Source of the DNA: an uncultured Ignavibacteria bacterium
Lineage (GTDB): Bacteria > Bacteroidota > Ignavibacteria > Tepidaquicellales > OLB5
Assembly (NCBI GenBank): GCA_937873695.1
Contig: CALMYL010000008.1
Location: 62,001-126,000, forward strand
Length of the DNA: 64,000 nt
Reading direction: 5' to 3'
In this document: positions 25,365 to 59,948 of the stretch, in pieces
How positions within the stretch are numbered: the first letter of the stretch is position 1
How the letters are laid out: every line of letters starts with the position of its first letter
Position numbers and translations under genes: made by a program
Notes under the pieces: model-generated
Told to the model about the DNA's origin: nothing
What the model saw: the letters and a program-made list of their open reading frames with translations, nothing else
Database searches by the model: none

Positions 25365-25391
25365 TTAGCACTCGCTAACTGTGAGTGCTAA
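25365..25391. promoter_or_regulatory. CIRCE operator (HrcA-binding site)
   Basis: A perfect TTAGCACTC - 9 nt - GAGTGCTAA inverted repeat, 57 nt upstream of groES. It overlaps the end of the predicted -10 box, so HrcA bound here would block transcription until heat shock. Confidence 0.97.
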
Positions 25392-25503: not shown

Positions 25504-26457
25504 ATGAAATTCCTTTTATTCATTTTACTCTGCATTGCCCTACATGGTAATACACGGGATACGTACGCTTGGGATTCAACCGCTGCAAAATATATGCCTT
25601 TGCAGGTTGGGAATATCTGGGTTTATTATTATAATTACACTGCACCAAGTACTGGAGGGAATGGTTATGAGAAATATAAAATCACGGGAATTACCGAGAT
25701 AAATGGAAAATTTTTTTACTCGTTCACTTTGGAAAGAAGAGTTATTTCGGGTCCGGCTATTTGCGATTCCAGAATATACTCAGCACCAATTCAATTAAGA
25801 CTCGATTCTGTATCAGGAAATTTATACAAAACTACAAATTGTGGACAGAATTTTGAAGGTGTTGTTGATAGCTTAAGATCAAAAATGTATGATTCAGCCA
25901 GCGTATGTGGTAATTTTCAGGGAAATGTTTCAAGATGTATTGATACATCTAATGTAACAATTTTCGGGCAAAGCAGAAAATCTAAGAAATTTTATGTACA
26001 GGGTTTCGAAGGTTCGAATTTACATGAATATACTCAAGATATAGGTTTAAGTTACTTTATTTATTCTCAACTAATGTCTCAATGCAGATTAAATCTTGTA
26101 GGTTGTTATGTAAATGGGTTATTCTTAGGAGATACAACTCTATTTGTTGGGATTGTTAGGACCAGCACAGGAATACCCGAAAATTTTTCATTATCCCAAA
26201 ACTACCCCAACCCGTTTAACCCGGTTACACATTTCAAATTTCAGATCGCGGAATCAGGATTAGTGAAACTAACAGTTTGCGATGCACTTGGTAAAGAAGT
26301 TGAAGTATTGCTGAACCGTGAACTGAATCCCGGCACCTATGAAGCAGATTGGGACGCATCAGCACATCCAAGCGGAGTGTATTATTATATGTTAAAAGTT
26401 GAGACGTCCCAGCTGGAAGTCTTTACAGAATCAAAGAAAATGGTTTTTATTAAATAG
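25504..26457 (+). CDS. T9SS-secreted protein, VGNxW family, paralogue 1
   Basis: A 317-residue protein with an excellent AAGGAGG ribosome site. The signal peptide ends near residue 22. The N-terminal domain begins KYMPLQVGNIWVYYY and has several paired cysteines, ending in a GCYVNGLFLGDT motif shared with three neighbours. Residues about 225-317 are a T9SS type A sorting domain (QNYPNPFNP, then an LxVCDALGKEV strand and YPSGVYYY). The domain carries a palindrome-derived VETSQLEV insert near its end. A surface-attached or released role is likely; the N-domain function is unknown. Confidence 0.75.
   Translation: MKFLLFILLCIALHGNTRDTYAWDSTAAKYMPLQVGNIWVYYYNYTAPSTGGNGYEKYKITGITEINGKFFYSFTLERRVISGPAICDSRIYSAPIQLRLDSVSGNLYKTTNCGQNFEGVVDSLRSKMYDSASVCGNFQGNVSRCIDTSNVTIFGQSRKSKKFYVQGFEGSNLHEYTQDIGLSYFIYSQLMSQCRLNLVGCYVNGLFLGDTTLFVGIVRTSTGIPENFSLSQNYPNPFNPVTHFKFQIAESGLVKLTVCDALGKEVEVLLNRELNPGTYEADWDASAHPSGVYYYMLKVETSQLEVFTESKKMVFIK
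26191..26344 (+). repeat. 154-bp direct repeat, copy 1 (sorting-domain DNA)
   Basis: This stretch is identical base for base to 27123-27276 in the next gene. It covers QNYPNPFNP through the NPGTYE segment of the sorting domain, whereas the flanking gene sequences differ. Confidence 0.9.
26401..26422. repeat. family D palindrome remnant inside coding sequence
   Basis: GAGACGTCCC-AGCT-GGAAGTCT, read in frame as VETSQLEV. It is a decayed copy of the perfect palindrome at 27333-27354. Confidence 0.75.
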
Positions 26458-26468
26458 GAGTAAGTAAA

Positions 26469-27389
26469 ATGAATAAAATCTTAGTGTTAATTTTGCTCAT
26501 ATCAATTTCAGAGAAAATTTATTCTCAGAATGATGTTCATAATTTTCTTCCGCTTAAAGTAGGCAATACCTGGATTTATACAGGTGGAAGCGGAGCGATA
26601 AGATTAAAGATAAATGGTACATCCATAGCCAATAATCATCTATATTATACTTTTGAACAGTCCGGTACCCTTGCTTCATGTGCACAGGGACCCTGTACAC
26701 CATTTTTGATAAATGCAATATACGCTATAAGGATTGATTCAATTACTGGAAATTTATTGATATTAACAAGCGGCAGTACATGTCCGTGGTTGAGCGGTGA
26801 AGTTTTGGTTGATTCTTTGAGAATGAAAACAGGAGACATGGTTAGCAATAGTTGTTTTTTTGCAAGCTGTTATGATACTAATTCTATGAGTATTTTCGGG
26901 ATATCAAGAAGAACCAAACAATTAGGTCAACCTGTTATGACATATTTCACTCAGAAAAGATATGTATATGGAATAGGAATATACAGTGCGCTTAAAGGAT
27001 GTTTTCATTCATCCTGTGGATATAGTTTAAACGGCTGTGTAATCGATGGCACAGTTTACGGTGATACTGGATTTATTGTCGGAATTAATCAGATTAACGC
27101 TGAAATTCCTGAAAATTTTTCTTTATCCCAAAACTACCCCAACCCGTTTAACCCGGTTACACATTTCAAATTTCAGATCGCGGAATCAGGATTAGTGAAA
27201 CTAACAGTTTGCGATGCACTTGGTAAAGAAGTTGAAGTATTGCTGAACCGTGAACTGAATCCCGGCACCTATGAAGTAGATTGGGACGCATCAGCATACC
27301 CAAGCGGTGTTTATTATTATAAAATACAAGTTGAGACGTCCCGGCGGGACGTCTTTACAGAATCAAAGAAAATGGTTTTAATAAAATAA
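26469..27389 (+). CDS. T9SS-secreted protein, VGNxW family, paralogue 2
   Basis: A 306-residue protein starting 11 nt after paralogue 1 with an AGGAG ribosome site. The signal peptide ends about residue 20 (IYSQ). The N-domain opens FLPLKVGNTWIYTG, contains about eight cysteines and closes with GCVIDGTVYGDT. The sorting domain follows, 154 bp of which is identical in DNA to paralogue 1. A perfect family D palindrome is read in frame as VETSRRDV near the C-terminus. The function of the secreted domain is unknown. Confidence 0.75.
   Translation: MNKILVLILLISISEKIYSQNDVHNFLPLKVGNTWIYTGGSGAIRLKINGTSIANNHLYYTFEQSGTLASCAQGPCTPFLINAIYAIRIDSITGNLLILTSGSTCPWLSGEVLVDSLRMKTGDMVSNSCFFASCYDTNSMSIFGISRRTKQLGQPVMTYFTQKRYVYGIGIYSALKGCFHSSCGYSLNGCVIDGTVYGDTGFIVGINQINAEIPENFSLSQNYPNPFNPVTHFKFQIAESGLVKLTVCDALGKEVEVLLNRELNPGTYEVDWDASAYPSGVYYYKIQVETSRRDVFTESKKMVLIK
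27123..27276 (+). repeat. 154-bp direct repeat, copy 2 (sorting-domain DNA)
   Basis: Identical to 26191-26344. Recent duplication or gene conversion of the sorting domain is the simplest explanation. Confidence 0.9.
27333..27354. repeat. family D palindrome inside coding sequence (perfect copy)
   Basis: Arms AGACGTCCC and GGGACGTCT around a GGC centre, preceded by G. It is translated as part of ETSRRDVF in the last hairpin of the sorting domain. A related intergenic copy is at 62946-62966. Confidence 0.85.
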
Positions 27390-27438: not shown

Positions 27439-28842
27439 ATGAAAACTTTATTTTCAGTATTAATTTTGCTGTTATTTATTATTACCAATAACTATTCTCA
27501 ATATGGTTATCAAAAAATCTACAGCGACGATACTTCAGGTAAGGGTGTAGTTACCATGAACAGCATCAAAATGAGTACCGGCGGTTTGAAGCATATTTAT
27601 ATCCAAAGGGGAGTCTCATTCCCCGATGGTAATCCTAATACAAGCGGGCAATACCTTAAACTTAACAGGCAGAACAACAGCTGGTATGAACCTCTAAACG
27701 GATTTGCAAAAGCAAACTGGTGTTTTTGTTTTTGTACTTTCACGTGTAACCCACCCAGATATGTCTGTAACAGAGTATTACTGTTTGTTCCATCTCCGCT
27801 TGATACACAATATGCCATCAAAAATTTAATGGGTAACTGCGGTTGTGATGCAGGAGATAAGGTTGCTTACACCGTTAATAACGGAATGAATTCATCGGAT
27901 CTCACGCAGTTCAGCAATGATTTCGCTGGGCAAATGTGTTTTGGAATTGATATCGATCCTGTAAATGATGCAATTGCTTATGTTGGTTATCCTATTTTGG
28001 GAACAAGTTACAAAGTTATTCATAAAACCACGAATAAAGGCAGCACTTGGGTTCCGGTCGATACAAATTCTCAATTTTTCAGATACATTAAAATTAATCC
28101 TATAAAAAGAACAAATATATTCTGCGGAGCCTCCGGGCAAACAATGCTGAGTACAAATTCAGGGGTTGATTTCTTCCCTGTCGGCGGTCAGAATTTCAAT
28201 GAAATGAAATTTTGTTATTCCGACAGCACAATTTACGGATTGGCGTTTAACGGAGTATACAAATCAACTAACCATGGCTTAAACTGGAGCCAGGTTTGGA
28301 ACAATAATACTTTAAGATGTATTGAAGTATCACCTGATAACAGCAATCTTTTGTATGCGGGTAATCCTTCCGGGCTTTACCGCTCAACCAACGGCGGATT
28401 AAACTGGGTGCTATACAATGACCATTTTTCACCATCTAAAAATGTACTTGGAATTTCCAAAGATGTTTCATCCGGTGATACTGTAATAATTTCAACTACA
28501 GATGCTGTATATAAAGTATGGGGAAGTTTTGTAGGGATAAATGTTGTTTCATCCGAGATTCCCGCAGAGTATTCTCTTTCACAAAACTATCCAAACCCGT
28601 TCAATCCGATAACTCATTTCGGATTTCGGATTGCGGAATTCGGGTTGGTGAAATTAACAATATACGATGCCCTTGGCAAGGAAGTAGCTTTACTTGTAAG
28701 CCAGCAACTACAGCCTGGCACTTACGAAGCCGAATGGGACGCAACGGCATACCCAAGCGGAGTTTATTATTATAAAATACAGGTTGAGACGTCCCAGCAG
28801 GACCTCTTTACAGAAACTAAAAAGATGGTTTTAATAAAATGA
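27439..28842 (+). CDS. T9SS-secreted BNR/VPS10-like beta-propeller protein
   Basis: A 467-residue protein with a signal peptide (to about residue 20). The propeller body carries repeated Asp-box-like motifs (KTTNKGSTW, STNSGVDFF, KSTNHGLNW, RSTNGGLNW) as in sialidase/sortilin-type repeats. A Cys-rich segment at about residues 95-140 is unusual. The C-terminal sorting domain has QNYPNPFNP and a palindrome-derived VETSQQDL insert. It probably binds or degrades a polymer outside the cell; enzymatic residues cannot be assigned. The stop overlaps the next start (ATGA). Confidence 0.75.
   Translation: MKTLFSVLILLLFIITNNYSQYGYQKIYSDDTSGKGVVTMNSIKMSTGGLKHIYIQRGVSFPDGNPNTSGQYLKLNRQNNSWYEPLNGFAKANWCFCFCTFTCNPPRYVCNRVLLFVPSPLDTQYAIKNLMGNCGCDAGDKVAYTVNNGMNSSDLTQFSNDFAGQMCFGIDIDPVNDAIAYVGYPILGTSYKVIHKTTNKGSTWVPVDTNSQFFRYIKINPIKRTNIFCGASGQTMLSTNSGVDFFPVGGQNFNEMKFCYSDSTIYGLAFNGVYKSTNHGLNWSQVWNNNTLRCIEVSPDNSNLLYAGNPSGLYRSTNGGLNWVLYNDHFSPSKNVLGISKDVSSGDTVIISTTDAVYKVWGSFVGINVVSSEIPAEYSLSQNYPNPFNPITHFGFRIAEFGLVKLTIYDALGKEVALLVSQQLQPGTYEAEWDATAYPSGVYYYKIQVETSQQDLFTETKKMVLIK
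28786..28807. repeat. family D palindrome remnant inside coding sequence
   Basis: GAGACGTCCC-AGCA-GGACCTCT, translated within VETSQQDLF, at the same sorting-domain position as in the two preceding genes. Confidence 0.75.
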
Positions 28843-29783
28843 GGAAATTTCTTTTCATATTTACATTTACGTTTGCAGTTTGTGTCTTCTTTCAGTGTAT
28901 TGAAGCCGGATCTGCATGGGATGTCGAAACAGCAAAGTATTTTCCGCTCCAGGTTGGGAATAAATGGGTATACAGAGGGACATCTACTGGATATACTGCG
29001 TTTGGAAGGTCATACCAAACATATACTGTTACAGGTGTTAAAGATACACTTGGCAGAAGATATTACGAAATTGAAGTAAGGGTATTTATGATAACTGGTA
29101 CGCTTTCATCAGGAGTAATGCAATTTGACAGATTTATCAGGATCGATTCATCCTCAATGAACTTATTTAAACTGCAGACATATTGCAGCAGAAATGAATG
29201 GCTTATTGACAGCCTGAGAGCCGGAAAGAATGATTCTCTTAAAATCTGCCCATTTGAGTTTTATACTGCGAACAGCGTTTGTACCGATACCTCAAATCAT
29301 AATCTTTTTGGGACGTCTTACCCCTCAAAAAGATTTTCGGAGTTTTTTGGTCCTGGTTACAATACTGTATACGTTAAAGGAATAGGTATTGCATACAGCA
29401 GTTATGGATATCAAATGAATCAGACACATGATACAATTAGAGGATGTATTATAAATGGTATAATTTACGGAGATACAAATGTACTTGTTGGAATTAACCA
29501 GTTAAGTTCAGAAGTTCCAAAACTATTTTCACTTTCCCAAAACTATCCAAATCCGTTCAACCCGGTTACGCATTTCGGATTTCAGATCGCGGAATCCGGA
29601 TTGGTTAAGTTAACAGTATACGATGCACTTGGCAAAGAAGTTGAAATACTCGTTAATCGACAGCTTCAATCCGGAAGCTATGAAGCAGATTGGGACGCAT
29701 CAACATTCCCAAGTGGTGTGTATTGTTATAAACTTGAAAGCGGCAGTTTCACAGAAACAAAAAAAATGGTTTTGCTTAAGTGA
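28839..29783 (+). CDS. T9SS-secreted protein, VGNxW family, paralogue 3
   Basis: A 314-residue protein whose ATG overlaps the previous stop. The signal peptide ends about residue 23. The N-domain starts YFPLQVGNKWVYRG and ends GCIINGIIYGDT, matching the other paralogues. Its sorting domain has QNYPNPFNP but lacks the palindrome insert (KLESGSFTETKKM). This gives the uninterrupted form of that hairpin for comparison. The stop overlaps the GTG start of the next gene, so the three genes are translationally coupled. Confidence 0.75.
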   Translation: MRKFLFIFTFTFAVCVFFQCIEAGSAWDVETAKYFPLQVGNKWVYRGTSTGYTAFGRSYQTYTVTGVKDTLGRRYYEIEVRVFMITGTLSSGVMQFDRFIRIDSSSMNLFKLQTYCSRNEWLIDSLRAGKNDSLKICPFEFYTANSVCTDTSNHNLFGTSYPSKRFSEFFGPGYNTVYVKGIGIAYSSYGYQMNQTHDTIRGCIINGIIYGDTNVLVGINQLSSEVPKLFSLSQNYPNPFNPVTHFGFQIAESGLVKLTVYDALGKEVEILVNRQLQSGSYEADWDASTFPSGVYCYKLESGSFTETKKMVLLK

Positions 29784-31135
29784 AAATTGTATTAAAAATG
29801 CTATTTGTATTTGTGCTCATGCAGAATATTGTTTCTGCGCAGCAAAGCCATAACATAAAAGTGCTGGCTCACTTCAATCATAACACTTTTCATTCTTCAT
29901 GCTGGGGGTATGAAACGGGGGGAAGAGAATACGCCATTTACGGATGGTTCGAAGGTACATCGATTGTTGATATAACGGATGAAAATGATATCCGTGATGT
30001 AGTTTTTCTGCCGGGCAGGTACAGCGGCTGGCGTGAAATGAAGGTTTACAAAAACTACCTGTATATCGTATCTGAAGCTGACAGCAGCGGGATACAGATA
30101 GTTGATCTGACCAGACTGCCTAATACTGTTGATCTTGTTAACACGTATTCATTTGATGGATTCAGAAGAGCGCATACAATTTCACAGAACGGCAGGTATT
30201 TGTACATTAATGGTGGCAACTACCGCGAAGGCGGAATAGTTGTGCTGGATGCCGGCGCTGATCCTGAAAGGCCCGTTAAACTTAGCGAGTGGGAGGCGGA
30301 TTACGTGCACGATTGCCGGGTAGTCAATGATACGATCTGGGCATGTAATCCTTTAACAGGAAAAGTAAGTGTAATTGATGCTGTTGACAAGAATAACCTT
30401 TTTACCATAACAACATGGGTGAACGGTCAGTATCCTGTGCCGCATAATTGCGCTCTTACTGATGATCATAAGTATCTTTATGTGTGCGACGAAAATTTTA
30501 ATAATCCGGGCAGACTGAAGATCTGGAATATCTCCGATAAAAGAGATATCATATATGCCAATGAATGGAAGATTAACGGTTCAACAGAATCTGTACATAA
30601 TATAGAAATATTCGGCAACTATGCATTTCTTTCCTATTACGGAGAGGGCGCGATTGTATTGGATATAACTGACCCTGTTTACCCCGTGGAAATAGCTTCA
30701 TTAAAAACCACTGCTTGCTGGCAGGTTTATTGTTTTCCTTCCGGTAAAATTATTGCTTCTGATATTTATGACGGGTTGTATGTTTTAAAAACCCTTGATC
30801 CAATCAGTGTTCACAACAACAGAGCCATCGCAGAAGGTTTTTCATTATCGCAAAACTACCCTAATCCGTTCAATCCGGCAACGAAAATAAAATTCAGCAT
30901 TCCGCAAAGTGAGTCTGCCCACAGGGTCGTCTCTACAAGTCTGATCGTATATGATGCACTTGGCAGAGAAGTACAGATACTGTTAGATAAACAGCTACAG
31001 CCCGGCACATATGAAGCGGATTGGGATGCAGCAGCATATCCCAGCGGTGTTTATTATTACAGGCTTCAAGTCCTTCGATCTGACTATTCGAAAGATGTTT
31101 TTACAGAAACAAGAAAAATGGTATTGATAAAATAA
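29780..31135 (+). CDS. T9SS-secreted choice-of-anchor B (LVIVD-repeat) protein
   Basis: A 451-residue protein with a GTG start inside the previous stop (GTGA). The signal peptide ends VSAQ. The body has repeated LVIVD-type propeller blades (TSIVDITDENDIRDV, IQIVDLTRLPN, IVVLDAGADPERPV, VSVIDAVDKNN, AIVLDITDPVYPV) as in choice-of-anchor B proteins. The sorting domain contains two extra segments relative to relatives (around 30913 and 31071) that look like palindrome remnants. Probably a surface adhesion or binding protein; no catalytic site seen. Confidence 0.8.
   Translation: MKIVLKMLFVFVLMQNIVSAQQSHNIKVLAHFNHNTFHSSCWGYETGGREYAIYGWFEGTSIVDITDENDIRDVVFLPGRYSGWREMKVYKNYLYIVSEADSSGIQIVDLTRLPNTVDLVNTYSFDGFRRAHTISQNGRYLYINGGNYREGGIVVLDAGADPERPVKLSEWEADYVHDCRVVNDTIWACNPLTGKVSVIDAVDKNNLFTITTWVNGQYPVPHNCALTDDHKYLYVCDENFNNPGRLKIWNISDKRDIIYANEWKINGSTESVHNIEIFGNYAFLSYYGEGAIVLDITDPVYPVEIASLKTTACWQVYCFPSGKIIASDIYDGLYVLKTLDPISVHNNRAIAEGFSLSQNYPNPFNPATKIKFSIPQSESAHRVVSTSLIVYDALGREVQILLDKQLQPGTYEADWDAAAYPSGVYYYRLQVLRSDYSKDVFTETRKMVLIK
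30913..30932. repeat. possible family D remnant inside coding sequence
   Basis: TCTGCCC-ACA-GGGTCGTCT resembles the intergenic palindrome at 62946 (AGACGACCC / GGGTCGTCT). It is translated in an extra loop of about eight residues between two sorting-domain strands. Confidence 0.5.
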
Positions 31136-31148
31136 AATATTATCCAAA

Positions 31149-32069
31149 ATGAAAACTCTGATTGTTTTATTAATGGTTCTAGCAGGCGGAATATATACCA
31201 ATTTATATTCATTGGATACCGCTGCCGTAAAATACTACCCATTAGCAGTTGGCAACACATGGACATACAGTCATTTTGCCACGAATGGACCTGCTTACAG
31301 ATACAAAGAAAAGATCACCGGTACAATTGTAACAAATGGTCACTTTTATTATGTGTTTACTTATTACAGAACAGGTTATTCTGAGACAGTTTCATACAGA
31401 AGAATAGATTCTGTGAAGAATATTGTACTTATCTACAGCTCAAACTCAGGCTGCCAGTGGCTGCAGAATGAAGAAACTGCTGACAGCCTCAGTGCGAGGA
31501 AAGGAGATTCATCCCGGGTAAGCTGTGTATATTATTACCGTGCTGATACTATAACAAAATCATTATTTGGAAGTCCGAGGAAGACCAAAAAATACAACTG
31601 GTCTAACTATTTTGAAGCGGGTGCAACCAGAGAACTGACCAGGGATTTCGGGTTTACTTACGAGTATTCTTTCGCGCATACTAACCAATCATACAATAGT
31701 CTTATCGGGTGCATTATTAACGGAATAATGTACGGCGATACATCATTGGTGGGAGTTACACCCATCAGCAGCGAGATTCCTGTGCATTTTGAGTTATATC
31801 AAAACTATCCAAACCCGTTTAATCCGGTTACGAAAATCAAATTCCAAATCCCCCTCATGAAGGGGGTGACTGATGGGAGTGGTGCGTTAATACAGATAAC
31901 AATTCATGATGCTCTTGGCAGAGAAGTTGCTGTACTTGTCAATCAGCACCTGCAGCCGGGTACTTATGAAGCTGACTGGGATGCATCGGCATATCCAAGC
32001 GGTGCATATTTTTATACAATTCGCTCCGGCAGTTATAATAAGTCAAAAAAAATGGTTATTATAAAATAA
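31149..32069 (+). CDS. T9SS-secreted protein, VGNxW family, paralogue 4
   Basis: A 306-residue protein with a signal peptide (to about residue 22). The N-domain begins YYPLAVGNTWTYSH and ends GCIINGIMYGDT. The sorting domain (QNYPNPFNP) has an extra loop LMKGVTDGSGAL encoded by a C-run/G-run palindrome at 31850-31866. It lies 13 nt after the LVIVD protein and closes the coupled run of surface-protein genes. Confidence 0.75.
   Translation: MKTLIVLLMVLAGGIYTNLYSLDTAAVKYYPLAVGNTWTYSHFATNGPAYRYKEKITGTIVTNGHFYYVFTYYRTGYSETVSYRRIDSVKNIVLIYSSNSGCQWLQNEETADSLSARKGDSSRVSCVYYYRADTITKSLFGSPRKTKKYNWSNYFEAGATRELTRDFGFTYEYSFAHTNQSYNSLIGCIINGIMYGDTSLVGVTPISSEIPVHFELYQNYPNPFNPVTKIKFQIPLMKGVTDGSGALIQITIHDALGREVAVLVNQHLQPGTYEADWDASAYPSGAYFYTIRSGSYNKSKKMVIIK
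31848..31876. repeat. in-frame palindromic element in sorting domain
   Basis: CCCCCTCATGAAGGGGG (31850-31866) is a palindrome of 5-C and 5-G arms, followed by TGACTGATGG. The same loop is absent from the other paralogues, so the element looks inserted without breaking the frame. Confidence 0.65.
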
Positions 32070-32376: not shown

Positions 32377-34206
32377 ATGAAGAATACTTTTATAATTTTT
32401 CTGATCCTGACCGGTTTTACATCATTGATTTTTTCCTCACAAAAAAGATCCGCAAATGAAATCTTCACATATGTTGACCCTGTACTGAATTCACAGTTTG
32501 TGAAAAATAATACAACAATAGCATTCAGCCTTACAGCCGGGATTGATATCAGCTCTGTATCCCCAAAAACAATAGAAATTTCAGGCAGCTTTGGAGGCAA
32601 CTACAGGTATGAACTTGTTTATCTGGATGATGAAAATCTATTTATCATTAAACCTGCTGCTGCTTTTAAGAACGGTGAAGTAATTACTCTGAATTTTTCT
32701 GCTGGTATTAAGGAAAGAAACGGGAACAGAATTGAACCTTTTGCTCATACCTTTAGAATACAGAAACAACAGCTGCCCAATGAGCCCCTACTGGGATTAG
32801 TAAATGAGATTCCCGAAGCAGAGTATAAACAATTAACTGAAAATACATACATAGGAACGGAAGCATTTCCTGTGATAACCGTCAATTATTCCAATAACCC
32901 CTCGCCGGGTAAAATACTTTTTAGTAATATTGTATTTAATGTTCAAATACCCAATACTCCTCATCTTATCATAATGAATAACGACGCTTCTGTTGTGTTT
33001 TCCAGGCAAATGGGAGGCCAGATCTTTGATTTTAACATGCAGCCAAACGGAAGATTCACATATTTCAGCCGTGTAAGGGGAAAGTACTTCGAGCTTGATT
33101 CTAATTATGTTATTACTGACAGCTTCTATACGGGTAATGGATATCTTACCGATATTCATGAGCTGAGAGTATTTTCAAACAGGCATGCGCTGCTTATGAG
33201 CTATGATAAACAGGTTGTTGATATGTCACTGCTATATCCCGGTGGGAATCCAAATGCACTTGTGACAGGTTTGATTGTTCAGGAAATAGATGAAAATAAA
33301 AATGTGGTTTTCCAATGGAAGAGCTGGGATCACATTCCAATTCTTGATGCGACACATGAAGATTTTACCGCTGACGAAATTGATTATATTCACGGTAATG
33401 CACTTGAACTTGATAATGACGGCAATATCCTGCTTTCGTCAAGGCATCTTGATGAGATAACTAAAATAAACAGAAGTACCGGTGAAATTATATGGAGAAT
33501 GGGAGGCAAGAAAAATGAATTTCAGTTCCCGAATGATCTTTTCAGGTTTTCACACCAGCACGGTATAAGGAGATTGTTTAATGGAAACATTATTATGTTT
33601 GATAACGGTAATTATCATTCTCCCCAGCAGTCGCGGGCAGTAGAATACTTGCTGGATGAATCAAATAAGATCGCAACAATGGTATGGGAATACAAAAATG
33701 TTCCTGCGATATACGGCAATGCGATGGGTTTCGCCCAGCGGCTTGAAAACGGAAATACTTTGATAAGCTGGGGGTCAACTAATCCAACTCTGACTGAAGT
33801 AAAACCTGATGGCAGCAGGGCGCTTGAAATTTCATTCTCAACAGGTGTGTTTTCTTACAGGGCTTTCAAATACAGTTATGGCGGTGGTTTTACCGGAATT
33901 CACCCGGTAAGTAATGAATCTCCGTCAGGTTATAAGCTATCCCAGAATTTTCCCAATCCGTTCAATCCTGTGACAAAGATAAGATTCAGTATTCCGGCCG
34001 GGCAGAATGGAGCATACGCTTCGGCTTCCGTTTTGAAGTTATATGACGCTCTTGGCAAAGAACTGAGGGTTTTGGTGAATGAGGAATTGAGGCCCGGAAG
34101 TTATGAAATTGACTTTGACGGCAGCGGTCTTTCAAGCGGAGTTTATTTTTACCGGTTGAGTTCTGGTGCATTCACTGATATGAAAAAGATGGTTTTGGTT
34201 AAATAA
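32377..34206 (+). CDS. T9SS-secreted arylsulfotransferase (ASST)-family protein
   Basis: A 609-residue protein with a signal peptide (to about residue 22) and an Ig-like module (about residues 30-125). A long propeller follows with ASST-family hallmarks: IHGNALELDNDGNILLSSRH, TGEIIWRMGGK, FSHQHGIRRL, YGNAMGFAQRLENGNTLISW and TEVKPDGS. A T9SS sorting domain ends the chain (QNFPNPFNP). The family moves sulfuryl groups between phenolic donors and acceptors, but some members are structural. The conserved His residues around IHGN and HQHG are present. It is followed by a terminator. Confidence 0.82.
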   Translation: MKNTFIIFLILTGFTSLIFSSQKRSANEIFTYVDPVLNSQFVKNNTTIAFSLTAGIDISSVSPKTIEISGSFGGNYRYELVYLDDENLFIIKPAAAFKNGEVITLNFSAGIKERNGNRIEPFAHTFRIQKQQLPNEPLLGLVNEIPEAEYKQLTENTYIGTEAFPVITVNYSNNPSPGKILFSNIVFNVQIPNTPHLIIMNNDASVVFSRQMGGQIFDFNMQPNGRFTYFSRVRGKYFELDSNYVITDSFYTGNGYLTDIHELRVFSNRHALLMSYDKQVVDMSLLYPGGNPNALVTGLIVQEIDENKNVVFQWKSWDHIPILDATHEDFTADEIDYIHGNALELDNDGNILLSSRHLDEITKINRSTGEIIWRMGGKKNEFQFPNDLFRFSHQHGIRRLFNGNIIMFDNGNYHSPQQSRAVEYLLDESNKIATMVWEYKNVPAIYGNAMGFAQRLENGNTLISWGSTNPTLTEVKPDGSRALEISFSTGVFSYRAFKYSYGGGFTGIHPVSNESPSGYKLSQNFPNPFNPVTKIRFSIPAGQNGAYASASVLKLYDALGKELRVLVNEELRPGSYEIDFDGSGLSSGVYFYRLSSGAFTDMKKMVLVK

Positions 34207-52516: not shown

Positions 52517-52520
52517 AAAA

Positions 52521-52546
52521 AAGCAAGTATTTGCATACTTGCTTTA
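52521..52546. terminator. hairpin after truncated tRNA copy 2
   Basis: AAAGCAAGTA / TACTTGCTTT stem with TTTGCA loop. On the - strand it is followed by T residues. It is a copy of the tRNA-Ser terminator at 52654-52679. Confidence 0.75.
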
Positions 52547-52556
52547 AAATACTTGC

Positions 52557-52648
52557 GGAGAGGGAGGTCCCTTCGGGAGAACCCTCGTGGTATGGGTTGA
52601 CCCCCTATGACGGTTTAGTCCGCCCACTGGCGGATTGGATTGAGCCAA
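52557..52648 (-). pseudogene. truncated tRNA-Ser-like copy 2 with hairpin insertions
   Basis: The same 3' two-thirds of tRNA-Ser as copy 1 with fewer changes. The T-loop carries TCCC-TTC-GGGA, and the anticodon stem-loop 5' side is replaced by TCCGCC-CACT-GGCGGA. The 5' acceptor and D-arm start are missing. The intergenic hairpin is repeated behind it. Confidence 0.8.
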
Positions 52649-52680
52649 TAAAAAAGCAAGTATCTGCATACTTGCTTTAA
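52649..52680 (-). terminator. intrinsic terminator of tRNA-Ser
   Basis: AAAGCAAGTA / TACTTGCTTT hairpin followed on the - strand by six T residues, about 10 nt after the tRNA 3' end. Confidence 0.85.
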
Positions 52681-52689
52681 AATACTTGC

Positions 52690-52779
52690 GGAGAGGGAGG
52701 GATTCGAACCCTCGATAGAGGTTGACCCCCTATGACGGTTTAGCAAACCGTTGGTTTGAGCCACTCACCCACCTCTCCG
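52690..52779 (-). tRNA. tRNA-Ser (GCU)
   Basis: A full class II tRNA of 90 nt: acceptor GGAGAGG / CCTCTCC, discriminator G, anticodon stem ACGGT / ACCGT with loop TTGCTAA (anticodon GCT; forward bases 52743-52745), a long variable arm and T-loop TTCGAAT. CCA is not encoded. Two truncated copies follow it in the direction of transcription. Confidence 0.95.
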
Positions 52780-55583: not shown

Positions 55584-56861
55584 CTAATATTTATTGCCGG
55601 CGTATATTACGCTTAGCTTGCCTTTATCAAGTCTCTGCCAGATACAGGCAGTAAAATCATTGTATGCATTAACGCCGATATAGTCACCAAAGAAAACGCT
55701 CTTAACAGGTGTGAAAGGTGATTCCGAAATCTTCACGTTTTCAAATGTTGTGCCGCCATCTGTTGATCTTGCCAGGTAAACATCAGTGTTCAGATCTTCG
55801 TAATTTCTTCTGTCATAATAGATGATATTAACAGAGCCTGTTACGGGGTCAACTGACATCCAGCTCATGAATTGTTGTTTGCCATTTCCTACAGGGTCAT
55901 CATTTATGCGAATTGGATCGCTCCACGAGCTGCCTCCGTCTGAAGATCTCAGCAAAAAAACATCCACATCATTTTCTCCGTTTGTCTTATCAGAGTAATT
56001 GATATAGATCGTTCCTCTATAAGGCGAATTGCTTATATCACACTGTGTAATTGGCAGGCCGTTGCATCTGAAAATTCCTTCAATTTCGTAAACCCATCCG
56101 CCGATCTGTGTGCCCGCGGTAATATCTTCATCCAGCCAGGTCGTTCCGCCATCAAGTGATCTGTCAAAGTACAGTTTATCATGGGCAGACCAGCTTACAT
56201 AAATCTCCCCGTTTGGTCCTACACATGGAACTGCACCTTCTGTAGTATTGGATGAATCCACGCAGTCTCCCGGAATCTTGTTTATTCTCATTGCATCGCT
56301 CCAGGTTGAACCTGCATCTGAACTGAATGAGAACATAATGTTTGAAAGATCTTCGGGCAGCCGGGAATCGTATGCATCAAACTGGGTCCATGTAACGTAA
56401 ATATTATCACGCCATTTGCTGTTTGAATTATCCACACAAGCCCAGGGTTTATCCTGCTTTTTAGGAGGATTGAGTCCCATGTATGTTCCGGGGTTTCCAA
56501 AAGTCATACCGCCATCAGTCGATCTTTGACAGACTATCCTGTCTATCCACTGGCCGTTTGATGGTCTTGAAAGGTGGAAGTAATAAGCGGCGCCGTTATT
56601 ATCAAATATCAGTACGGGGTCACCCCAGACGCCGTTTTTGCTGTCTGATATTTCCTTGTTTATCCATGTACTGCCGCCATCAAATGAATAATAGTAATTA
56701 TTAATATTAGCCCCGGCAACCAGGTTATTGGGATGCCGGGGATTGATAGCTATCGATACTTCTTCAGGACTGTTGCTGATCGAGTTAACCTTAATATTCT
56801 TGTACTGCGATAAGGAAATTGAGGGCAATATCAGTAATACTAAAATTAAGTTTTTTATCAT
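55584..56861 (-). CDS. secreted six-Asp-box (sialidase-like) propeller protein
   Basis: A 425-residue protein with a signal peptide (to about residue 19). It has six Asp-box motifs of the S-x-D-x-G-x-T/S-W/F type: SFDGGSTW, STDGGMTF, SSDAGSTW, SLDGGTTW, SSDGGSSW, STDGGTTF. This fits a six-bladed sialidase/BNR propeller. It ends without a sorting domain. It is paralogous to the next two genes upstream. Typical sialidase Arg-triad residues cannot be confirmed by eye, so it may only bind glycans. Confidence 0.75.
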   Translation of the reverse strand: MIKNLILVLLILPSISLSQYKNIKVNSISNSPEEVSIAINPRHPNNLVAGANINNYYYSFDGGSTWINKEISDSKNGVWGDPVLIFDNNGAAYYFHLSRPSNGQWIDRIVCQRSTDGGMTFGNPGTYMGLNPPKKQDKPWACVDNSNSKWRDNIYVTWTQFDAYDSRLPEDLSNIMFSFSSDAGSTWSDAMRINKIPGDCVDSSNTTEGAVPCVGPNGEIYVSWSAHDKLYFDRSLDGGTTWLDEDITAGTQIGGWVYEIEGIFRCNGLPITQCDISNSPYRGTIYINYSDKTNGENDVDVFLLRSSDGGSSWSDPIRINDDPVGNGKQQFMSWMSVDPVTGSVNIIYYDRRNYEDLNTDVYLARSTDGGTTFENVKISESPFTPVKSVFFGDYIGVNAYNDFTACIWQRLDKGKLSVIYAGNKY

Positions 56862-56906
56862 TTATTTCTTCCTGATTATATTTTGTATTCTTTAAAAGCA
56901 AAACAG

Positions 56907-58493
56907 CTACTTTGCCAGGATCATCTTTTTTGTTTCTGAATAGCTGCCCGACTGCATTTTATAGAAGTACACACCGCTTGGCTGCGTTGATGCATCCCAT
57001 TCATATTTGTACGAACCCGCTGAAAGTTTTCCGTTTACAATAACTGCCGTTTCATTTCCCAGAATATCATAGATCTTTATTGATACATCCTGCTGCCCGT
57101 TACCGGCAAATGACGGAATATCAAACTCAAACGTTGTGTTTGGGTTGAACGGGTTTGGGTAATTCTGCTTCAGGCTGAAGGATGCCGGAATTTCTGTAGA
57201 AACCGGTTCGACTCCAACAGGGAAATTCATTATTGCCGTTAATACACTTAATGTACCTGATACAAGCCTTATCCAAATTGGTCTCACAACACCGTTATGT
57301 GATGATATGTTGGTGTAATCACCAAAGAATATGTTTGACTGCGGTGTGAACGGGGCTGCACTGATCCTTTCATTGACCCATGTGGTTCCGCCGTTCGTTG
57401 AACGGGCTATGTAAACATCAGTCTGTGTGTTCGTGTAATTTCTTCTGTCATAGAATACGCAATAAAGATATCCGGTTACCTGGTCTATTGACATCCAGGT
57501 GAAAAATTGTTCTTTTCCTGCAGGGTCGTCGTTAATTCTTATTGGTGCGCTCCAGGTATTACCGCCATCGGTTGACTTAATAACCATCACGTCATGGTCT
57601 GCGGGTCCGGCGCTATCGGTATAATTAATGTATATCGTTCCGCGGTATGGTGAATTGCTGATATCACAAAGTGTGATAGGCAAACCGTTGGATCTGTAAA
57701 TGCCGGCTACAACATAATCCCAGCCGCCGCGCTGTGTGCCTGCTACAATATCGTTTTCAAGCCAGGTATTGCCGCCATCTGTTGACTTATCAAAGAATAA
57801 TTTAAAATTATTGATTCCCAGCGGACCCGACCAGGCGACATAAACTTCACCATTTGGACCAACCGCGGGTACTGAGCCTTCAGTTGTGTAATCTTCATCT
57901 ACACAGTTGCCGCCATAACGGCTTAATCTTTTAATACCGGTAAAAGTTGCACCCATATCAGTAGAACGTGCGAATAATATCCTTGAGCTATCATTTGGAT
58001 TGCTTGTGCCGTAATTATCAAATTCTGTCCAGGCAACGTATATCCAATTGCCGCGGGGACCGTGTGTGAAATCCGTGATAGCCCATTCTTTATCCTGCTG
58101 TTTAGGTGAATTGAACTGCCAGTATGTTCCGGCATTCCATGTTGCGCCTGCATTTGTTGATTTATTTACTCCCATTCTGTCAATAAAGCTTGCGCCGTTT
58201 ACCAAATGGAAATAATAGAAGTTACCAACGGTATCTGTAATGATACAAGGGTCACCCCAGACTGTATATGTGCCTGTCAGGATGCTGCTTACCCATGTTT
58301 GGCCGCCATCGGACGAGCGGTAAACTTTATCGGTATTCGCTCCTGCGACTATCTGGTTAGTGTTTTTCGGATTCACACAAATAGAAGGTTCATTCGGGCC
58401 TCCTGTTGCGCTTATGGTAATATTGGTATAGGATGATTGTGAATAAATGGATGTGGTGAGGATGAACAATAGTGTAAATACTGTAGTTTTCAT
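56907..58493 (-). CDS. six-Asp-box propeller protein with T9SS sorting domain
   Basis: A 528-residue paralogue of the two flanking genes. The signal peptide ends about residue 18. Six Asp-boxes are present (SSDGGQTW, STNAGATW, STDMGATF, two STDGGNTW, STNGGTTW). Unlike its neighbours it ends in a T9SS sorting domain (QNYPNPFNP, IYDILGNETAV, PSGVYFYKMQSGSYSETKKM). The conserved ISNSPYRGTIYINY segment between blades is shared by all three. Probable surface-exposed glycan-interacting protein. Confidence 0.78.
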   Translation of the reverse strand: MKTTVFTLLFILTTSIYSQSSYTNITISATGGPNEPSICVNPKNTNQIVAGANTDKVYRSSDGGQTWVSSILTGTYTVWGDPCIITDTVGNFYYFHLVNGASFIDRMGVNKSTNAGATWNAGTYWQFNSPKQQDKEWAITDFTHGPRGNWIYVAWTEFDNYGTSNPNDSSRILFARSTDMGATFTGIKRLSRYGGNCVDEDYTTEGSVPAVGPNGEVYVAWSGPLGINNFKLFFDKSTDGGNTWLENDIVAGTQRGGWDYVVAGIYRSNGLPITLCDISNSPYRGTIYINYTDSAGPADHDVMVIKSTDGGNTWSAPIRINDDPAGKEQFFTWMSIDQVTGYLYCVFYDRRNYTNTQTDVYIARSTNGGTTWVNERISAAPFTPQSNIFFGDYTNISSHNGVVRPIWIRLVSGTLSVLTAIMNFPVGVEPVSTEIPASFSLKQNYPNPFNPNTTFEFDIPSFAGNGQQDVSIKIYDILGNETAVIVNGKLSAGSYKYEWDASTQPSGVYFYKMQSGSYSETKKMILAK

Positions 58494-58649
58494 TTGTGAT
58501 TTTTATGATTATACCGTAAAATACCTAATTTAGTTGTGATTTTAAAGGGAGAATTTTTGTTAATTGCCGATGGTGATATAATGCTCAGATGGAATACCTA
58601 ACTATTGATATTTCATGGCCTGTTTTTATGTCGGGAGGACTGAGGCGGT

Positions 58650-59948
58650 TCATTTATCTATAATAGCGCTCCAAATACTCAGAGAGTTGCTGTCAAGCCT
58701 TGTCCAAATGGGCCTTATCATGCCGTTAACAGCTATAATGTTCGTGTAATCGCCCATAAATGTTTCAGAAAGCGGAAAGAATGGTTTTTCGCTGATTCGT
58801 TCGTTAAGGAATGTTTTGCCGCCATCGGAAGATGATGCAAGGTAAACATCGGTCTGTTCATCATCATAATTTCTTCTGTCATAAAACACAACATAAATTA
58901 CTCCGGTTTCCTGGTCAATGGTAAGCCAGTTATAGAATTGATGTTTACTCCCGTTGTCATCGTTAACACGGGCAGGTGTACTCCATGTAAGCCCTTCATT
59001 TACAGAACTGCTTATCCATATATCGGTATTATCATATCCGTTCTTCTGGTCAGCCCAGCTTATATAGAGGGTTCCTCTGTATTTGCCGCTGCTCATATCA
59101 CATGCCATTGAAGGAAATCCAAATGTTCTGTAAACACCGGGTACAGACATTTTGAAAGTACCGGGAAGATCAGCTACTTTGATATCTTTATCAAAGAAAG
59201 TTAATCCTCCATCAGTTGAGCGGTCAAGCATAATTCCGTATGGTGAGCACCATGCCAGGTAAACTTCGCCGTTCAGTCCAACGCAGGGTACTACGCCAAG
59301 AACAGTAGCACCCGCATCAGAGCACTCAGCACCCGAGAGTTCATTAACGCGTTTTCTTTCAGCCCAGGTTTCGCCGCCATCGCTTGATAAACTGAAGATA
59401 ATGTTTGATGCGCTATCCATTGGATTTAAAGCTGACCCCTCATCGGAAAATTTATTCTGTCCGCATTGTGTCCATGCCGCGTAAATATTGTTTCTGTAAG
59501 GAGAAAATGAGTGATCGACAGCAGCCCACTCTTTATCCTGCAGGTGAGGGGAGTTTGCTCCCATATAAGAGCCGTTGCTCCAGGAAATGCCGCCATCTTC
59601 TGACTTTTGGCAAATAATTCTGTCAAGCCAGGTTCCGCCTTCGCTGTATGAATTAGATAAATGAAAATAATAGAAGTTACCCCTGAGGTCTGAAACTATG
59701 CACGGGTCGCCGTATACTCCGTAAGTTGAAGTAAGTTTTCGGGCCGCCCAAGTGTAACCGCCATCGAAGCTGTAGAAGTATGTCTCAATATTTGCAGCAG
59801 CAACCAGGTTAAGCGGATTAATAGGGTTGAAAGAGATTGTCACTTCGCTTGGAGTATTTTCATCCGTAATTTTAATATTCTTATATAATGACTGTGAAAA
59901 GGCAGCTGAACATAGTATAAATGCTGTTAAAATGACCAGGTTTTTCAT
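58650..59948 (-). CDS. secreted six-Asp-box propeller protein, no sorting domain
   Basis: A 432-residue third paralogue. The signal peptide ends about residue 18 (AAFSQ). Asp-boxes are SFDGGYTW, SEDGGISW, SSDGGETW, STDGGLTF, a decayed SVNEGLTW and SSDGGKTF. It stops right after the last blade, with no QNYPNPFNP domain. It is on the same strand as the other two with 156 nt between. It would be exported to the periplasm unless another route is used. Confidence 0.75.
   Translation of the reverse strand: MKNLVILTAFILCSAAFSQSLYKNIKITDENTPSEVTISFNPINPLNLVAAANIETYFYSFDGGYTWAARKLTSTYGVYGDPCIVSDLRGNFYYFHLSNSYSEGGTWLDRIICQKSEDGGISWSNGSYMGANSPHLQDKEWAAVDHSFSPYRNNIYAAWTQCGQNKFSDEGSALNPMDSASNIIFSLSSDGGETWAERKRVNELSGAECSDAGATVLGVVPCVGLNGEVYLAWCSPYGIMLDRSTDGGLTFFDKDIKVADLPGTFKMSVPGVYRTFGFPSMACDMSSGKYRGTLYISWADQKNGYDNTDIWISSSVNEGLTWSTPARVNDDNGSKHQFYNWLTIDQETGVIYVVFYDRRNYDDEQTDVYLASSSDGGKTFLNERISEKPFFPLSETFMGDYTNIIAVNGMIRPIWTRLDSNSLSIWSAIIDK

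Follow-up and report, generated by a model that had tools for sequence, protein, structure and literature searches.

Probable recent gene conversion between type IX secretion sorting domains of neighbouring cargo genes, and REP palindromes in sorting-domain loops, in an Ignavibacteria genome

ORGANIZATION OF THE CARGO GENE ARRAY

The window, a stretch of 64,000 nucleotides from an Ignavibacteria genome, contains groES and groEL (named by eye from the open reading frames), which are adjoined by an array of seven genes that encode secreted proteins ending in a C-terminal sorting domain of the type IX secretion system (T9SS), type A (TIGR04183; hereafter CTD); the remaining secreted protein is termed the passenger (Table 1). 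All seven genes exceed the TIGR04183 cut-off (23 bits) at their C-termini and five of the seven exceed that of Pfam PF18962 (27 bits); the CTD of gene 1 scores 25.4 bits with the former and 25.8 bits, under the cut-off, with the latter. The paralogous genes 1, 2, 4, and 6 have passengers of a single family, about 200 residues long, for which Pfam gives no match; in gene 3 the passenger matches sortilin-like and glycosylhydrolase-like families below threshold. SprA/Sov, the translocon of the T9SS, is also encoded in the genome (916.5 bits summed over its pieces; cut-off 200 bits). A perfect match to TTAGCACTC-N9-GAGTGCTAA, which we take to be a CIRCE operator, was identified at 25365-25391, ahead of groES-groEL and between groES and gene 1, indicating that the array begins beside a likely heat-shock promoter.

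Table 1. Coordinates of the genes, identical tract copies, and REP palindromes in the window.
Feature	Position	Strand	Evidence
Gene 1: secreted passenger (without Pfam match) and T9SS type A CTD	25504..26457	+	ORF
Gene 1 CTD coding region used in the mosaic test, stop codon excluded	26173..26454	+	
Identical tract, gene 1 copy	26191..26344	+	Direct comparison
Decayed REP palindrome, gene 1, encoding ETSQLEV	26403..26421	+	
Gene 2: passenger homologous to gene 1 (33% amino acid identity) and CTD	26469..27389	+	ORF; TIGR04183 30.0 bits
Identical tract, gene 2 copy	27123..27276	+	Direct comparison
Intact REP palindrome, gene 2, encoding ETSRRDV, residues 289-295, beta6-beta7 hairpin tip	27335..27353	+	
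Gene 3: T9SS cargo gene with CTD	27439..28842	+	ORF; orthologue comparison with G002
Decayed REP palindrome, gene 3, encoding ETSQQDL	28788..28806	+	
Gene 4: passenger family of genes 1 and 2; CTD without REP	28839..29783	+	ORF, homology
Gene 5: choice-of-anchor B passenger and CTD; decayed REP in loop beta2-beta3	29780..31135	+	
Gene 6: passenger family of genes 1, 2, and 4; CTD loop insert with 17-nt inverted repeat	31149..32069	+	
Gene 7: arylsulfotransferase-like passenger and CTD; last of the array as drawn	32377..34206	+	
Further REP copy with two compensating arm changes; no ATG-started frame >28 aa	62947..62965	+	L014

THE IDENTICAL TRACT IN GENES 1 AND 2

A preliminary description of this DNA reported 154 bp of sequence repeated without mismatch in neighbouring sorting domains. 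Direct comparison confirmed that the two copies, which lie at an offset of 932 inside the CTDs of the adjacent paralogues, genes 1 and 2, are identical at 154/154 positions and are bounded by mismatches at 26190 and 26345, the identity and the edges alike being directly observed; the pair was also found in the longest direct-repeat family in a repeat search of the window. Similarity between the two genes fades upstream of about 26180 and past the stop codons. When the order of the 96 sites that vary among genes 1–4 in the CTD coding region was shuffled, the longest run of identity between genes 1 and 2, which spans 51 variable sites, was reached with p = 2e-4, and the other five pairs among these genes gave values of p from 0.003 to 1.0. 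Among all 18,915 pairings of the 195 CTDs taken from the genome, only 3 share an exact stretch longer than this tract, which together with the run test indicates that the tract did not arise by chance. Inside the tract genes 2 and 3 match at 111/154 positions; in the next 51 nucleotides gene 2 is slightly closer to gene 3 (45/51) than to gene 1 (42/51), a switch that rests on these 51 bases.

Other repeats in the window comprise a 51-nt direct repeat at 52517-52567 and 52650-52700 (98% identical), the second copy of which overlaps the 3′ end of a tRNA-Ser(GCT) gene (52688-52778) and the first of which could be the remnant of a tRNA end, of the kind that integration or duplication leaves behind, and three 137-nt copies about 70% alike within 55744-58946, beginning at 55744, 57379, and 58810.

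The preliminary description held in addition that the N-terminal domains have clearly diverged, and it called for a comparison of synonymous divergence along the two genes. The passengers were found to share 33% amino acid identity with a dS of 2.1, and the CTDs have a dS of 0.147, which falls to zero inside the tract. Such a contrast could have arisen if genes were duplicated in tandem and their passengers then diverged fast while the constrained CTD changed slowly, as the paralogy of genes 1, 2, 4, and 6 and the protein-level constraint on the tag would allow; however, the identity extends to synonymous sites, and in the nearest relative found (G005) the orthologous CTD of gene 2 has a dS of 1.08 despite a passenger dS of 0.69. 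This course of events is extremely unlikely for genes 1 and 2, although certain other pairs may have arisen in this way.

The palindrome that lies close by might suggest that selection acts directly on the DNA or RNA, as on a conserved signal within the coding region, but the palindrome is situated outside the tract, and the tract is conserved neither in the CTD of the orthologue nor in genes 3 and 4 (72–79% identical), making this the least probable of all the explanations considered. The suggestion that the tract boundary coincides with the palindrome was rejected: in gene 1 the palindrome begins at 26403, 58 bases beyond the end of the tract, and its copies in genes 1 and 2 differ at 3 of 19 bases.

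SIMILARITY OF NEIGHBOURING CTDs ACROSS THE GENOME

CTD genes were extracted from the genome of the window (G000) on the basis of TIGR04183 search regions and DNA matches, and 3 of the 198 candidate ORFs were dropped (one without a CTD, and two true CTDs ending in QM that were missed by the filter). Because only 150 of the 330 candidates in this genome, and 150 of the 338 in G009, a congener assembled in two contigs, were scored against TIGR04183, both CTD sets are incomplete. Exact stretches of at least 40 bp are shared by 15 pairs among the 195 CTDs; the two members are less than 5 kb apart in 11 of these pairs and less than 10 kb apart in 14, and the lone distant pair shares 62 bp, is separated by 226 kb on opposite strands, and has paralogous passengers that are 72% identical. 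A filter that retains only passengers without homology (blastp E > 1e-3), and thereby sets aside tandem gene duplication, left the distance dependence directly visible: CTDs at least 75% identical were found in 6 of 81 pairs closer than 5 kb (6 of 139 closer than 10 kb) and in none of 17,389 beyond 5 kb. In G009, for which the distance cut was 10 kb instead of 5 kb, the corresponding counts were 9 of 112 pairs and 0 of 6,335; the sample comprised 121 CTD genes from 39 of 86 clusters (at least two matches each; 103 of 150 matches) plus two further regions, and exact matches were sought there only in pairs more than 65% identical. Below 2.5 kb, mean CTD identity between genes with non-homologous passengers is 0.617 on the same strand versus 0.517 on opposite strands, which may reflect a same-strand preference, the opposite-strand pairs being few (8).

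The pair in the window is not a one-off but one case of many in the genome. The CTDs of further pairs likewise have lower dS than their passengers (0 versus 0.48 in contig C5, 0.04 versus 1.7 in C6, and 0.43 versus saturation in C7). A separate locus, G000:C6:366895-377659 (L041), carries six tandem CTD genes whose passengers are 71–77% identical in the three pairs compared; its first and last CTDs, 9 kb apart, are identical over 299 bp, and the four middle CTDs carry other palindromic inserts.

As the tract is close to a short read in length and the assembly consists of 30 contigs, a repeat consensus could have been placed in both genes during assembly. Flanking differences are, however, resolved within both CTDs, and the same pattern occurs in several other assemblies as well as in the two-contig G009, in which its dependence on distance makes assembly error an unlikely cause; for the tract itself such an artefact is very unlikely.

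SEPARATE HISTORIES OF TAG AND PASSENGER IN RELATED SPECIES

The preliminary description had proposed that the same identity in all sister species would speak for selection on the nucleotide sequence. In G005, the gene 2 orthologue has a passenger 81% identical at the amino acid level, whereas its CTD is only 75% identical and lacks the palindrome insert. Similarly, gene 3 and its orthologue in G002 have passengers that are 93% identical (dN 0.035) and CTDs that are 71% identical (dN 0.227, dS saturated); the CTD of the G002 orthologue shares 68 bp exactly with that of a gene two genes away, and the best CTD match of gene 3 is its orthologue in G003 (80%). In other species, different neighbour pairs have been homogenised.

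Best matches and a CTD tree were obtained for 71 CTD genes from 12 genomes (that of the window, ten of the genus, and one of the family), drawn from 13 of 20 retrieved regions and including the seven genes of the window; two of the 71 had no passenger match. For 1 of 69 genes the best passenger match comes from the gene's own genome, whereas for 37 of 71 the best CTD match does, a number reached in none of 5000 label shuffles; for 32 of 69 genes neither best match comes from the gene's own genome. On the CTD tree, genome labels require 36 changes against a shuffled mean of 53.8 (0 of 200 shuffles as low); clustering is weak for G011, G013, G009, and G003, for each of which 34 to 65 of 500 shuffles gave as low a value, while no shuffle did so for G008. 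This homogenisation specific to each genome, which was directly observed, indicates that the CTDs are subject to concerted evolution, being more alike within than between species, albeit partially (37 of 71 CTDs).

A passenger gene might alternatively acquire its neighbour's whole CTD through short tandem duplication or illegitimate recombination at the domain border, as is suggested by CTD-only similarity that starts near this border where passengers are unrelated (for example C7:54072/55551, with a passenger E value of 0.41 and CTDs 92% identical). For pairs with unrelated passengers, conversion is indistinguishable from such capture of a whole tag, that is, of the duplicated 3′ end of a neighbour. 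In the case of genes 1 and 2, however, the perfect identity ends inside the CTD, after which gene 2 leans slightly towards gene 3, and the orthologues of genes 2 and 3 in relatives have CTDs of their own that differ, so that a tag was more likely replaced than newly gained; acquisition of a whole tag is accordingly an unlikely origin of the tract.

Gene conversion of the tag is supported by the exact tract, the dS contrast, the distance dependence, and the within-genome CTD matches. Genes 1 and 2 would be old tandem paralogues whose CTDs have remained homologous enough for recombination, and a patch of one CTD would have been copied onto the other by gene conversion, leaving the passengers unaffected. 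A continuing short-range process of this kind would rewrite CTDs within arrays of T9SS cargo genes, and its outcome would be that many CTDs resemble those of neighbours in the same genome while the passengers resemble orthologues elsewhere. The 154-bp tract is thus, judging from sequence comparisons, very probably a recent gene-conversion tract and one event of this continuing rewriting, and recent copying of the tag only, as first surmised from the identity at synonymous sites, remains the best fit now that sister species have been found to differ. We infer a direction of copying and a route, presumably homologous recombination without crossover, and the tag would be expected to remain functional after copying.

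THE GTAG REP PALINDROME AND A RAYT-LIKE TRANSPOSASE

The palindrome of gene 2, GACGTCCCNNNGGGACGTC, belongs to a repeat that carries GTAG at one foot and represents a GTAG-tagged REP; its insertion is in frame and falls on the last beta-hairpin of the CTD, at the tip. REPs of this type were detected in 13/13 genomes of the genus (at most two mismatches; control 0 in each), and a longer REP pattern gave 15 matches in the genome of the window against 1 for the control. With up to three mismatches, the 28 matches in this genome are exceeded by 261 for a reversed-pattern control, and this count therefore shows nothing on its own. From 102 REP readings, the 55 starting with GT were kept, of which 43 have GTAG and 9 have GTAA; one variable stem pair is A-T in 26, T-A in 25, and otherwise in 4, and is thus compensatory, and the remaining pairs hardly vary. 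At the 17 of 28 sites read in the genome of the window (C19:1720, C20:3680, and nine others lying outside this set), eight REPs are in frame in CTDs, one is within a transposase-like ORF, and eight are outside any ATG-started frame of more than 44 residues. Across the genus, 5 of 30 REP loci, which include one CTD of the window's genome already counted, fall in open frames of at least 150 residues, namely four CTDs and one transposase of the same kind.

Two clustered arrangements were also observed. In G002:C6:396063-401900, ten one-mismatch REP copies with a GTAC foot occur within 6 kb, the last seven alternately 53 and 184–187 bp apart, like a regular array; in G010, at least 18 pairs of CACAGACATTC palindromes with a GTGG foot are spread over many contigs, the two copies of each pair being oppositely oriented and separated by 48 bp, like REPIN pairs.

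The transposase-like ORF (G000:C8:413431-413967; positions 2432-2968 of L123) contains the same REP in frame, with an inverted copy about 320 bp away, and a RAYT-like transposase in G010 (L179) also carries it. Both show the motifs NHFH, WQ, and YIHYNP (YIIYNP in G010) and score 63.1 and 61.9 bits with the RAYT family NF047646, under its NCBIfam cut-off of 80 bits; the Pfam Y1_Tnp score is 18.3, under the cut-off of 23. The putative transposase is RAYT-like by its motifs and its REP and, with scores under the cut-offs, is not classed as a RAYT member. The gene was located by means of the REP itself and is absent from the list of eight Pfam Y1_Tnp genes in the genome, next to which no REP was found within about 1.5 kb on each side; the nearest REP lies 3 kb from the gene at C20:95045.

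INSERTS IN TWO LOOPS OF THE SORTING DOMAIN

The inserts are situated in two CTD loops, beta2-beta3 and beta6-beta7, the strands being assigned in this analysis with the names of the seven-strand sandwich described in the available part of PMC11285876. A second family, a palindrome of the CACAGACATTCC type with a GTAG or GTGG foot, is dispersed in 11/13 genomes and encodes a recurring insert of the VAQTFLS type, and two further types of inverted repeat, CCCCTCTNNAGAGGGG and CCTTCGACNNGCTCAGG, were found in the CTDs of relatives. By approximate matching, one of these four palindrome families is present in 18 of 195 CTDs of the window's genome versus 1 of 188 passenger windows (270 nt), and in 30 of 74 CTDs versus 0 of 73 passenger windows in relatives, with motifs and thresholds that were set after the inserts had been seen; among the 18, C7:82978 (F2), which has no loop insert, is probably a chance match. 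This family-based count was used in place of a general inverted-repeat test of long loops, which is only suggestive, because the scores of relatives overlap widely with those of random CTD windows; loop parsing left out six CTDs for loop 1 and nine for loop 2.

In an AlphaFold model of gene 2 (5 sequences), the palindrome encodes the SRRD turn together with the residues that close beta6 and open beta7. The mean pLDDT is 52.8, with an unusable passenger, values of 63–84 for the blocks from residue 231, and 63–76 at the hairpin tip. CTD identity extends over 288 bp in the pair C5:6635/8025 and over 299 bp in the pair C6:366895/375890, in each case including a long loop 1, which indicates that copying can spread inserts.

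The available part of PMC11285876 reports that export in P. gingivalis requires the C-terminus and the beta3-beta4 loop but tolerates an 11-residue replacement in the beta5-beta6 loop; the apparent retention of inserts in other loops would be consistent with these data. On a broader view, loops beta2-beta3 and beta6-beta7 might be preferred coding landing sites for several unrelated REP families, with the turn of the palindrome becoming the tip of a protein hairpin, conversion spreading altered tags to neighbours, and each genome drifting to its own tag dialect while passengers are inherited normally, a scenario that we judge about equally likely to hold or to fail.

IMPLICATIONS AND COMPARISON WITH KNOWN SYSTEMS

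These observations suggest that export tag and cargo may have separate histories, two signals that whole-protein trees, HMMs, and orthology calls of T9SS cargo would mix. The inserts, which spare the C-terminus and the beta3-beta4 loop and lie in two other loops, offer a natural experiment on which parts of the CTD tolerate change, and the approximately two hundred related recipients in a single genome provide a bacterial system for the study of short-range conversion. Gene conversion and genic REPs are each already known on their own; in searches confined to an open-access collection and judged mostly from listings, no report of either in T9SS sorting domains was found.

The homogenisation of segments within a genome, the short tracts, and the distance dependence resemble the concerted evolution of paralogues, but here the process is confined to the C-terminal export tag of otherwise different cargo genes. 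Rickettsia palindromic elements are small palindromes that are inserted within varied protein genes. The inserts described here share with them the insertion in protein genes and differ in being concentrated in two loops of one domain family.

The available part of PMC3733652, in which Rickettsia palindromic elements in coding genes are named, describes GTAG REPs as RAYT-linked repeats with a GTAG foot, a short stem-loop, and alternative complementary stem bases, mostly intergenic and in some cases within genes, and surveys them in Proteobacteria, Cyanobacteria, Chloroflexi, and PVC; unlike in that portion of the survey, the GTAG REPs reported here occur in a genus of Ignavibacteria, and those genic copies that were examined are located either in loops of T9SS CTDs or in a transposase. 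In TnpA-REP subclass 2.4, as characterized in the available part of PMC6006769, the REP is located within the transposase ORF and the motifs are NH[IFV]H, WQ, and YIxNNP; the RAYT-like genes are similar in the REP inside the gene and in NHFH and WQ, but have YIHYNP or YIIYNP instead of YIxNNP and thus agree only partly with this subclass. Recombination among T9SS cargo genes also has a parallel in the rearrangement of gingipain and adhesin genes in P. gingivalis, where, according to the available part of PMC5266723, adhesin modules and alleles are shuffled, whereas in the array described here copying affects the tag and leaves the passengers in place.
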